Shown piece by piece: positions 155 to 57,952 of a DNA stretch of 64,000 nucleotides (positions within the stretch are counted from its first letter, which is position 1; every line of letters starts with the position of its first letter). The notes beneath the pieces were generated by a model. It made no database searches and was not told where the DNA came from. It saw nothing but the letters and a program-made list of their open reading frames with translations. Where the stretch lies: contig CALLOB010000003.1 of the NCBI GenBank assembly GCA_938005315.1, positions 1 to 64,000 of the forward strand. Direction: 5' to 3'. This stretch comes from an uncultured Phycisphaerae bacterium (lineage in GTDB: Bacteria > Planctomycetota > Phycisphaerae > UBA1845 > PWPN01). Position numbers and translations under genes: made by a program.

Positions 155-628
155 TTACCACCAAGGCAACTCGTTGATTTCTCCCGCAAACGGCCAATCC
201 TGCGGATTGCCGACCAATCCCTTGCGGACTAGGTTCAACCTCACGTACTCCCATTTCGCTGAATAAGACTCACCCGCGCGCAGTTGCGTGTCCCAGAACG
301 ATTTCTGCCAGATCGGATGTTCATGAAGCCGGGGCCAGTGCCTGGAAGCGTGGGATTTCCAGAACTGCACCCAGTTGCTCAAGGGCGGCGCGTCCGCGCT
401 GCCCGGCGCACAGAAAAGGTGCACATGGTCCGGCATGAGCACGTAGCGGCCGATCTGCCACATCGACGCCTCTGTCCAGGCCTTGCGCAGCAGTTCATGA
501 ACGTCCGCCTGGGCCAGGATCGGCTTGCGCTTCTGCGTGCAGACCGTGACGAAGATAACGATCGGCCGATTGAACAGCTCTCGTGCCGGCAGGTGTATCG
601 GCGAATGCCGATCGGGGAGGTTGACCAT
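155..628 (-). CDS. REP-associated tyrosine transposase (RAYT, IS200-like Y1/HUH family)
   Basis: Protein MVNLPDRHSPIHLPARELFNRPIVIFVTVCTQKR...MPDHVHLF...YVRLNLVRKGLV. HUH motif (HVH) and the C-terminal Tyr helix Y-x(3)-N-x-V-x-K-G-L-V typical of Y1 transposases. Start set at the ATG at 628; the ORF-track extension to 814 reads into REP repeats. Confidence 0.9.
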   Translation of the reverse strand: MVNLPDRHSPIHLPARELFNRPIVIFVTVCTQKRKPILAQADVHELLRKAWTEASMWQIGRYVLMPDHVHLFCAPGSADAPPLSNWVQFWKSHASRHWPRLHEHPIWQKSFWDTQLRAGESYSAKWEYVRLNLVRKGLVGNPQDWPFAGEINELPWW

Positions 629-20001: not shown

Positions 20002-21324
<1,323 letters not shown>

Positions 21325-21483
21325 TTATGAAAACACTTCGCCGGAAAACACCCAAGACTATACTTCGGCCGCAGCCCCGGTCAAGCAACAGCCGATCCGC
21401 TGATGACCGGGGGGGCTGACCAGTCCGGCGACCGTCAACCCGGCGGGCCGGAAGCGTTCCTTTTGTCCCACGGGCCCCCCGGA

Positions 21484-21862
21484 GGCCCCGCTCCCTCGGG
21501 GCCGGGGATCCGTCTGGAGGGCCCCGCTCCGTCGGGGCCGCAAAGCACGACGGGTGAAAACCCGCGATCGCGGACGCGACGGAGCGCGTCCCTCGGGGCC
21601 GGGGATCCGTCTGGAGGGCCCCGCTCCGTCGGGGCCGCAAAGAACGACGGGCGAAAGCCCGCGATCGCGGACGCGACGGAGCGCGTCCCTCCGAGGCCGG
21701 GGATCCGTCTGGAGGGCCCCGCTCCGTCGGGGCCGCAAAGAACGACGGGTGAAAGCTCGCGATCGCGGACGCGACGGAGCGCGTCCCTCCAGGGCGATGG
21801 CGGACGCGACGCAGCGCGTCCCTCCGAGGCGGGGATTCGGACGCGACGCAGCGCGTCCCTCC
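21484..21862. repeat. REP/BIME cluster: ~97-98-bp tandem array with alternating hairpin classes A and B
   Basis: ggggatccgtctggagggccccgctccgtcggggccgcaaag... recurs at 21504, 21601 and 21699. Each unit holds one GGCCCCG/CGGGGCC and one GGACGCG/CGCGTCC hairpin; further B copies to ~21862. Confidence 0.92.
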
Positions 21863-21972: not shown

Positions 21973-23967
21973 TTACACCAGCACCCGCCGGCTGTAAACC
22001 AGCCATTCGATCAGCAGCAGGCCGCACAGGCCCAGCAGCAGCGCCGGCCACAACGGCCGGCGGGTGACCCTGTCCGTCCCGGAGATCTCCACGGCCCCGC
22101 TGGCGATCTGCAGACCTGCGGCGGGAGCCACGAGGCTTTCGCCCTCGTCCAGCAGGTTCACCGCCCGGGTTTCGTCGCCGTCCAGGGCCGGCGAAACCGC
22201 GTAGAAGCCCACGCGGTCCGTCCGGCCGTAGATCACCTCGCCTCGTCCGCGCACCTCCACCGTCTCGGAAGTCCCGTCCGGCCGCCGCACGGTCACCGAC
22301 GAGGTTCCCGGCCTGGCCGGCACGGTGAAGGCCTCCCCCGGCCGCACCGAGGGCCGTCGCCCGGCGGTCGTGGCCCCGGCCAGGTGCCGGAGGCCGTCGT
22401 ACATGAAGGCCACGAACCCCTCGTGGAAGACCCAGGTGGTGTTCAGAGCCGTGCGGGTTTCGTCAAACAGGCCCATCGCGCTGATCAGGTACTGGCTCCG
22501 CTCCCGACGCAGCAGCGCCAACACCGGGCCGGAGGGCGATTCGATCAGCGTGCGAGCTTCCGGCGGCAGGCGCAGCTTATACCAGGAGGCCGCCGCGATC
22601 GCCGGCACCGAAACGTGCTGCAGCACCGGGTGGGTATCATCCCAGTCCAGAAACGGCTCGCCTTCCACCTTGCCGGTCTGTTCCACACCATCGATCAGCG
22701 GGACTCCGCCCAGAAAGATGTAGTTGCCGGCCGGGAGACGCTCGGTCGAATGGCCGTCCAGCACCACCACGTCGAACCGGCTGCGGCCGTTGTCGCTGAG
22801 CTTCTCCTCCGGTGCCTGCTCATACTCCTGAGGCGTCCAGAACGTCCGGCCGGCCAGCGGCATGGCGTTCATCAGCTGTCGCAGGAACCGGTTGCCGGGA
22901 GTGACCACGAGCACCGACAGGGCCTGCGGCGGCGTCACCACCGCGAAAGCCCGGTCGTCGGCCGCCAGTGCATCGGCACCCGACAGCCGCACCTCGACCA
23001 GGGCCCCGGTATCCAGGTCCAGCTCGAAGGCCACCGGCAGGCTGCTTCCCTCGGAGGCGGGCCTGTCGGCCGCCGTTCCCGACAGTTCCTCCGGCGCGGC
23101 CGCCGGAGCCAGGGCTTCGACCCGCCGAACGTCCCGAAGACGCCCGTCCAACAGAAGCTGCACGTCCCGGGAGACCGAACGGGCGCCGAAGTTCCGGACT
23201 CGAGCCAGGACCGTCACCCGCACCGGCTGCTCGTGGCTGCGGCGCACGTCGAGGTTCACGATGCCCACATTCTCGGTCGCCCGACCGATGCGGATGACTT
23301 CCAGCGTCCCGTGCTCCAGCGAGACCCCGCCGGCGTCCGCCAGGCGCCCGTCGGTGAACAGCAGATGCGCGGTCCGGGCGATCCGCTGATCGGCGTCGGT
23401 GGCCTCGCCGGCCTTGGAGGCGTGGGCGTTGGCCAGGGCGATGGCCTCGGCCAGCCGGCCGGGGGCGTCGGTGGGGCGGATGGATTCGACCGCGCGGCGC
23501 AGCTCGGCGCGGTTGTCGGTGAACGGGGCCAGGACCCGCGCCCGGTCGGCAAACGCGATCACCATCGCCCTCTGAGACTCTCCGAGTCGGTCGATGAGCC
23601 GCAGGACCTCCTCGCGGGCGATGTCCAGCCGCGTCCGCCCGTCGCCCTCGTCGGCCGACATGGAGGCCGAGGCGTCCACGATGAAGACCGTCGCCTGCTC
23701 CAGCCGGCCGGCCCCGGCATGCATCGGCTCCCAGACCGCCAGGACGCCGGTCGCCACAATCAGCAGCTGCAGGATGAGCAGCAGGTTGTTGCGGAGCTTC
23801 TGGAACGGGGCGTTGACCCGCAGGTCCTGCACCGCCTGGAGCCACAGCAGCGTGGAACTGATCGGCCGCTCGTGCCGGCGGAGCTTCAGGAAGTACAGCA
23901 GCACCAGCGGCGGCACGGTCAGCGCCGCGGCCAGGGCCGGAACCGTCCACGGGGCCGCGAAGCTCAT
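21973..23967 (-). CDS. BatA-type vWA-domain membrane protein
   Basis: MSFAAPWTVPALAAALTVPPLVLLYFLKLRRHERPISSTLLWLQAVQDL (BatA N-terminus); ATVFIVDASASMSADE (MIDAS DxSxS); C-terminal TM. Confidence 0.87.
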   Translation of the reverse strand: MSFAAPWTVPALAAALTVPPLVLLYFLKLRRHERPISSTLLWLQAVQDLRVNAPFQKLRNNLLLILQLLIVATGVLAVWEPMHAGAGRLEQATVFIVDASASMSADEGDGRTRLDIAREEVLRLIDRLGESQRAMVIAFADRARVLAPFTDNRAELRRAVESIRPTDAPGRLAEAIALANAHASKAGEATDADQRIARTAHLLFTDGRLADAGGVSLEHGTLEVIRIGRATENVGIVNLDVRRSHEQPVRVTVLARVRNFGARSVSRDVQLLLDGRLRDVRRVEALAPAAAPEELSGTAADRPASEGSSLPVAFELDLDTGALVEVRLSGADALAADDRAFAVVTPPQALSVLVVTPGNRFLRQLMNAMPLAGRTFWTPQEYEQAPEEKLSDNGRSRFDVVVLDGHSTERLPAGNYIFLGGVPLIDGVEQTGKVEGEPFLDWDDTHPVLQHVSVPAIAAASWYKLRLPPEARTLIESPSGPVLALLRRERSQYLISAMGLFDETRTALNTTWVFHEGFVAFMYDGLRHLAGATTAGRRPSVRPGEAFTVPARPGTSSVTVRRPDGTSETVEVRGRGEVIYGRTDRVGFYAVSPALDGDETRAVNLLDEGESLVAPAAGLQIASGAVEISGTDRVTRRPLWPALLLGLCGLLLIEWLVYSRRVLV

Positions 23968-35309: not shown

Positions 35310-35547
35310 CGGGAAGTCCCCCTTGCGTCTCCAAGGACCGATCGCGCGCCGGCGCGACGCCCGGTCGTCACGCTGCGGTGCCCGGTCGTGGCTGCCGGTG
35401 CGGAAGATTCGGAGCATTCTATGCCTCGATCCGGCTTTTTCCACCGCCCGACGGGTTTCGGCCGACGGAATCGTATCCATGACAGTTCAGGTGGCCATCA
35501 ACCGCGCCTGCGAGCCGCAAGAGCGTTTTTCGCCCGCTGGCCCCACG

Positions 35548-35752
35548 GAGGGCCCCGCTCCGTCGGGGCCGAAAACTGGAGGGCCCCGCTCCGTCGGGGC
35601 CGTGCGAAAGGGCGTGCGACGGGCCACAGGATCGGGGACGCGACGCAGCGCCTCCCTCCAGGGCCGAAAATCGGAGGGCCCCGCTCCGTCGGGGCCGTGC
35701 GAAAGGCGTGCGACGGGCCGCAGGATCGGGGACGCGACGCAGCGCGTCCCTT
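35548..35752. repeat. REP/BIME cluster (classes A and B) between divergent genes
   Basis: GGAG+GGCCCCGCTCCGTCGGGGCC three times and GGACGCGACGCAGCG[CG/CC]TCC twice; shares a composite module with 41030-41202. Confidence 0.9.
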
Positions 35753-35935
35753 CGCGATGGCCCGCTTGAGCCCGGGGCACGGCCACCAGGCCCCAACCGT
35801 CATGCCCCCGACGGAATCGTCCGCCGTCGCCGGACCGGCGGCGCTGCCGGACGTCGAAGGGCGAGGGTTTGACGGAAATCCAAGTGCCGCTAGGCTGGCC
35901 GGAAACCGCCCGGCGTTGGCCGGGAAAAAGTCCTC

Positions 35936-40862: not shown

Positions 40863-41022
40863 GAGTACTCCTGAAAAAGCGTGAAGCCGCGCCCGGCACG
40901 GTCGCCCGACGCTCGTGCGCTGCGGCCGGTCGTCCGGGCGGTCGTCCGCACCGGCAGAGCTTAGCCTTTGCCGCGACCGCCGCCAAGCCGCGCCCCGCAG
41001 GCCGTGTGGGGGCCGAAGATCG

Positions 41023-41202
41023 GAGGGCCCCGCTCCGTCGGGGCCGAAAACTGGAGGGCCCCGCTCCGTCGGGGCCGAAAACTGGAGGGCCCCGCTCCGT
41101 CGGGGCCGTGAGAAAGGTCATGCGACGAGCCACAGGATCGGGGACGCGACGCAGCGCGTCCCTCCAGGGCCGAAAATCGGAGGGCCCCGCTCCGTCGGGG
41201 CC
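41023..41202. repeat. REP/BIME cluster (classes A and B) between divergent genes
   Basis: GGAG+GGCCCCGCTCCGTCGGGGCC four times and GGACGCGACGCAGCGCGTCC once; same spacer sequences (gaaaact, acaggatcgg, agggccgaaaatc) as the 35.5-kb cluster. Confidence 0.92.
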
Positions 41203-57819: not shown

Positions 57820-57952
57820 CGGAGGGACGCGCTCCGTCGCGTCCTCGATCGCCCGATCCAGGTCCGCGGCCCCGACGGAGCGGGGCCCTCCGCCTGGCGC
57901 AACGTCTTCGTCGCGTCGCGCCACCTGCGGCCCCGAGGGAGCGGGGCCCTCC
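57820..57952. repeat. REP/BIME cluster (classes A and B)
   Basis: ggagggacgcgctccgtcgcgtcc, ggccccgacggagcggggccctcc and ggccccgagggagcggggccctcc. Confidence 0.88.

Follow-up and report, generated by a model that had tools for sequence, protein, structure and literature searches.

GGAG-footed REP hairpins of two stem classes as the probable ends of a heterodimeric, RAYT-linked mobile unit

The hairpins arrayed at 21480-21862 of the window (the whole 64,000-nucleotide stretch of DNA analysed) are probably the REP ends of a heterodimeric mobile unit of the BIME/REPIN type belonging to the REP-associated tyrosine transposase (RAYT) encoded at 155-628 (-), a reading to which we give a probability of about 0.78. 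It is built on the anatomy of the hairpins, their linkage to the RAYT gene, the rule by which the two hairpin classes, A and B, are inverted relative to each other, and the covariation of stem pairs 3 and 5 across genomes.

Hairpin arrays and the RAYT gene

The array comprises nine 24-nt copies with a repeating unit of approximately 97-98 bp, with A copies on the forward strand (21480, 21516, 21613 and 21711) and B copies on the reverse strand (21572, 21669, 21767, 21802 and 21839). One A>B< heterodimer unit occupies 21516-21595 (+) and consists of A (21516-21539), a 32-nt spacer containing a small hairpin (CGGGTGAAAACCCG) and an inverted B (21572-21595). The array copies bear out an earlier note on this DNA, which described 7-bp stems (GGCCCCG in A, GGACGCG in B) closed by a 6-nt CTCCGT loop and differing by compensated changes at pair 3 (C:G to A:T) and pair 5 (C:G to G:C). 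The variant loops that it mentioned are likewise confirmed, CTCCCT occurring in A at 21480 and CTGCGT in B at 21802 and 21839. The GGAG foot, described as unchanged, is indeed common to A and B but is damaged in 2 of the 9 copies (CGGA, in register, in A at 21480; CGAG in B at 21572), so it is not invariant. Similarly, the architecture is that of a canonical REP in placing a tetranucleotide foot 5' of a hairpin, but not in the foot itself, which is GGAG and not GT[AG]G.

The array is flanked by genes for enolase (20002-21303, -) and, on the other side, BatA/VWA (21973-23967, -). A sigma-70-like promoter match at 21357-21384 (-) lies between the array and the enolase gene, and the array may therefore be outside the eno transcript. 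Further REP arrays in the window are found at 35547-35753 (A (+) at 35547, 35578 and 35673; B (-) at 35636 and 35730), 41022-41202 (A (+) at 41022, 41053, 41084 and 41179; B (-) at 41142) and 57821-57952 (B (+) at 57821; A (-) at 57868 and 57929). Tandem multiplication also occurs in single REPs that lack their partner, as in the three A copies at 31-bp spacing within 41022-41107, and B copies elsewhere stand in tandem 37-39 bp apart.

The 157-aa product of the gene at 155-628 (-) passes the cut-off of NCBIfam NF047646 (REP_Tyr_transpos; 96.8 bits, cut-off 80). It has the HUH residues H68 and H70 and a tyrosine, Y128, which aligns with tyrosine 115 of its best solved relative, E. coli TnpA_REP (4er8). 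A and B copies lie on both sides of the gene: downstream, within 52-109, A (-) at 52-75 and B (+) at 86-109; upstream, within 641-809, B (+) at 641-664, a B variant (+) at 694-717 with the stem GGACGCA/CGTGTCC, A (-) at 752-775 and B (+) at 786-809. Each side has inverted A/B pairs, and the copies nearest to the gene (86 and 641) are parallel B copies. With a GC content of 0.60, the RAYT gene ranks beneath every one of 437 predicted genes except one. Among 393 genomes sampled from the phylum, 4 were found to encode a RAYT of this closeness, and a search of 114 genomes of the order found the REP pattern in a single genome besides this one, a rarity that suggests recent gain. The genome encodes two further Y1_Tnp proteins, which are 21-22% identical to this RAYT and fall below the NF047646 cut-off; no A or B REPs were found in the 3.3-kb stretches around their genes, which we therefore rejected as partners of these REPs.

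Allowing up to 2 mismatches, we found 150 A-like and 179 B-like matches in the 3.76-Mb genome, compared with 0 for reversed-pattern controls. A 630-kb portion of the genome, made up of the window, sampled stretches and the surroundings of exact copies, yielded 325 copies, 145 of class A and 180 of class B, in which fully paired stems were of two kinds, 120 GGCCCCG and 143 GGACGCG. Only 49 of the 325 copies were inside predicted CDS, against a coding fraction of 0.80, with genes predicted by a simple codon-usage model, which failed to call the RAYT gene. The elements are, as REPs are, short palindromes of high copy number found mainly outside predicted CDS. Of 96 REP clusters, 36 could not be assigned to a gap between two predicted genes; a large share of these lie at contig ends, where the repeats may have broken the assembly. 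Two loop changes recur in a class-specific manner, suggesting subfamilies: CTGCGT (C to G at loop position 3) in B only (27/180; for example, 21802, 21839 and 41142) and a CTCTGT-type change in A (15/145).

Orientation and covariation

The proposal that A and B act as a pair, usually inverted, proved to hold without exception in this genome. Within 250 bp, all 138 A-B neighbours were inverted (89 feet-out, A>B<, and 49 feet-in) and all 91 same-class neighbours were parallel, with class and orientation locked in 229/229 neighbour pairs, although copies inside one cluster are not independent events. There was no facing homodimer among the 325 copies. Two inverted REPs and a spacer recur here as a unit, as in BIMEs and REPINs, and arrays grow both by tandem copying within a class and by whole units.

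Within this genome, the A/B compensation represents two founder alleles, that is, one historical difference and not many independent tests. Individual copies look as if they are decaying neutrally, without regard to pairing: among 81 altered stem pairs, 63 were broken, 16 were G-T and 2 were compensated. Given the proportion of broken pairs, we rejected within-genome covariation as proof of selection on every copy; two founder alleles with decaying copies imply a constraint on transposition-competent ends, not on each copy.

We next turn to other genomes. RAYT relatives with 45-59% identity come from records labelled Desulfobacterales, Latescibacterota and Ignavibacteriales and from other genomes of the same phylum. 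GGAG hairpins adjoin the RAYT gene in all of these relatives but one (locus L138), and REPs are present on both sides of the gene in loci L127-L130 and L136 as well; in L128 and L129, both flanking REPs are of one stem class. In most of the relatives, the stems beside the gene (for example, GGCCACG, GGACCCG, GGGCACG and GGACGTG) differ from those of A and B and are fully compensated, and the relatives' genomes contain further types (GGTCACG, GGCCGCG, GGACGGG and others). Variation is almost confined to pairs 3 and 5, which take almost any Watson-Crick type among the relatives. In 31 distinct sequences, collected with search patterns that placed no constraint on either arm at pairs 3 and 5, these pairs were Watson-Crick in 26/31 and 27/31, respectively, compared with 8.8 and 10.5 expected by permutation. 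Across 49 distinct sequences, 92.7% of cells were paired versus 79.3% after shuffling, double changes numbered 52 versus 14.8, and the covariation score was 0.369 versus 0.107 for shuffled sequences and at most 0.195 for slid structures; part of this set was added by hand (on foot/loop likeness, or as consensus or RAYT-flanking copies), its related sequences are not independent, and its foot and most loop positions are constant because they were fixed by the search.

Stem covariation across genomes is thus strong, and, together with the exceptionless A/B pairing, it supports the earlier note's view that selection acts on the folded single strand. Neither of the outcomes named there as refuting, an absence of covariation and (in this genome) unpaired, independent classes, appeared.

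Three observations concern individual elements among the relatives. The Desulfobacterales RAYT (L127, 1501-1962) reads WDCVRKN where others have W-x-Y-V, its catalytic tyrosine being replaced by cysteine, and despite this RAYT its genome has about 340 REP matches. One REP (G508:C449:992-1015) has mixed arms (GGACCCG/CGTGACC), as if recombined through the loop. Finally, a distant RAYT from a genome of the same family (L132, 1404-2018; 35% identical over 90 residues) is flanked by canonical GTAG REPs of the form GTAG-CGGTCGCC-CCCCGY-GGCGACCG.

A model for unlike ends and its rivals

On our reading, the mobile unit is a REP heterodimer that has an A hairpin at one end and, beyond a spacer, an inverted B hairpin at the other, the GGAG foot of each pointing outward. 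By analogy with other TnpA_REP systems, the RAYT would bind the hairpins in folded, single-stranded form via the foot, the loop and the five stem pairs that hardly vary, would cleave beside the foot and would spread the unit. In those systems, the transposase binds REP DNA as a folded single strand, the foot helps to choose the cut site, loop contacts matter in perfect-palindrome REPs, and the last two foot bases, AG, have been proposed to select CT (PMC8266576). These two bases are kept in GGAG. The sequence 5' of the foot fits a CT cleavage site only in part, the base before the foot being a pyrimidine in about 95% of copies and CT being present in about 28%. GGAG-CTCC pairing between the foot of one hairpin and the loop of another is possible; an intramolecular foot-loop pseudoknot was set aside on the reasoning that the foot joins the stem base without a linker and could hardly span 7 bp.

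Identical ends, on this model, would fold together as a single long hairpin or cruciform, which the RAYT would read poorly and host nucleases would attack. That this is why the ends differ at both free pairs seems to us an even bet. A broader reading, which we advance tentatively, is that selection in this GGAG REP/RAYT lineage, spread over several phyla, keeps unit ends mutually non-complementary: the RAYT would read the foot, loop and five fixed pairs, and the free pairs 3 and 5, both used in every unit, would serve as an orthogonality code weakening the long cruciform. In DNA folding with natural spacers, the advantage of the long hairpin over a pair of local ones was 20.5 kcal/mol with identical ends, 13.0 kcal/mol with one differing pair and 5.4 kcal/mol for the A/B consensus. 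In natural units, the long hairpin was favoured by 3.5 kcal/mol and the local fold was preferred in 17/87. The modelling suggests that the two-pair difference removes about 15 of the 20 kcal/mol favouring the long A:B hairpin; most A>B< units still slightly prefer it, so the difference weakens this fold and does not abolish it. A weakened long hairpin fits both the hairpin-versus-clover idea (PMC3116915) and the suggestion that SbcCD spares heterodimers (PMC3733652).

The A/B difference could instead be functionless, a chance-different heterodimer having been amplified in each lineage and the inversion reflecting the copying of whole units. The occurrence of only two stem classes in this genome and the apparently neutral decay of copies are in keeping with such a founder effect, and unit copying is enough to explain the inversion rule within one genome. 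Comparison between genomes points the other way. Among the matches listed for six genomes, 235 of 236 inverted neighbours differed at both pairs 3 and 5, and the sole equal-class inverted pair faces outward, with its copies about 100 bp apart. Moreover, in each of seven distinct combinations, which come from several lineages, both free pairs differ, an outcome whose probability by chance is 0.002 if all combinations are taken as equally likely, 0.006 under random draws and 0.028 when the existing stems are re-paired. These values make a two-pair rule beyond chance suggestive, not conclusive, and the founder effect therefore keeps weight, although we hold it to be somewhat doubtful.

The earlier note also left open whether the folded strand is a transposase substrate or an RNA structure. 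The presence of a cognate RAYT makes the substrate branch likelier. If the hairpins were terminators, mRNA stabilizers or processing sites, with selection acting on RNA structure, their position mostly outside predicted genes would be natural, and REPs elsewhere have been reported to act in mRNA (PMC3733652). However, REPs show no marked enrichment between convergent genes (13/57 gaps with REPs versus 30/160 without), the terminator-like match within 21480-21862 is the spacer hairpin and not a REP, and the altered stem pairs of individual copies are mostly broken; we consider an RNA function improbable. A terminator scan of the array found no T-tail on the REP hairpins and an Rfam search no match to them, leaving a terminator role or a known RNA family, likewise without marked convergent bias, unsupported. 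No relation was seen between class polarity and the direction of codirectional genes (14 with, 19 against). Also improbable is a two-transposase reading, in which A and B form distinct REP families, each with its own enzyme reading pairs 3 and 5. Class is tied to orientation without exception and two more Y1_Tnp proteins exist in the genome, as this would lead one to expect, but those proteins are the divergent, sub-cut-off ones that lack A/B REPs nearby, and the near-free choice of Watson-Crick type at pairs 3 and 5 among relatives also speaks against it.

Relation to known REP/RAYT systems

REPs, BIMEs, REPINs, RAYTs, heterodimers and compensated stem subtypes are already known; new here is a GGAG-footed, strictly heterodimeric form of these elements. 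The published rule for the REP foot is GT[AG]G, and the families of a 2018 survey have GTAG or GTGG (PMC6006769), whereas the REPs of this genome and those of the RAYT relatives have a GGAG foot. We did not find a GGAG foot in the REP/RAYT literature searched, of which coverage was partial and comprised text without figures. REP/RAYT systems are thereby extended to a foot that searches based on GT[AG]G would miss.

As in the E. coli REP/BIME system (Y, Z1 and Z2) with TnpA_REP, a tetranucleotide foot stands 5' of the hairpin, the RAYT is linked to its own REPs, and unlike REP types are joined as inverted pairs (PMC8266576, PMC6006769). In contrast to the GTAG foot and long bulged stems of E. 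coli, the elements here have GGAG, a perfect 7-bp stem and a 6-nt loop, and their two classes, unlike the E. coli REP types, differ at just two stem pairs. Pseudomonas REPINs share the inverted REP doublet and spacer as a RAYT-linked mobile unit, and alternative long-hairpin and clover folds were already proposed for them (PMC3116915); the GI REPINs of SBW25 are symmetrical, with one long hairpin predicted, whereas the units described here have unlike ends and a weakened long hairpin.

The closest parallels in stem design are with the GTAG REP heterodimers of Di Nocera et al. (2013), which likewise form HH dimers of unlike stems and have stem subtypes arising by complementary changes (PMC3733652). 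Those elements carry GTAG or CGTC feet; here the foot is GGAG, facing homodimers are absent from the 325 copies, and the same two stem positions are used in several lineages. The 2013 study saw no obvious explanation for the preference for heterodimers and suggested protection from SbcCD (PMC3733652). The present system reduces this puzzle to two base pairs in a nearly constant 24-nt element. Several phyla supply natural replicates and the transposase is at hand, so that a few oligonucleotides would suffice to test the heterodimer question.
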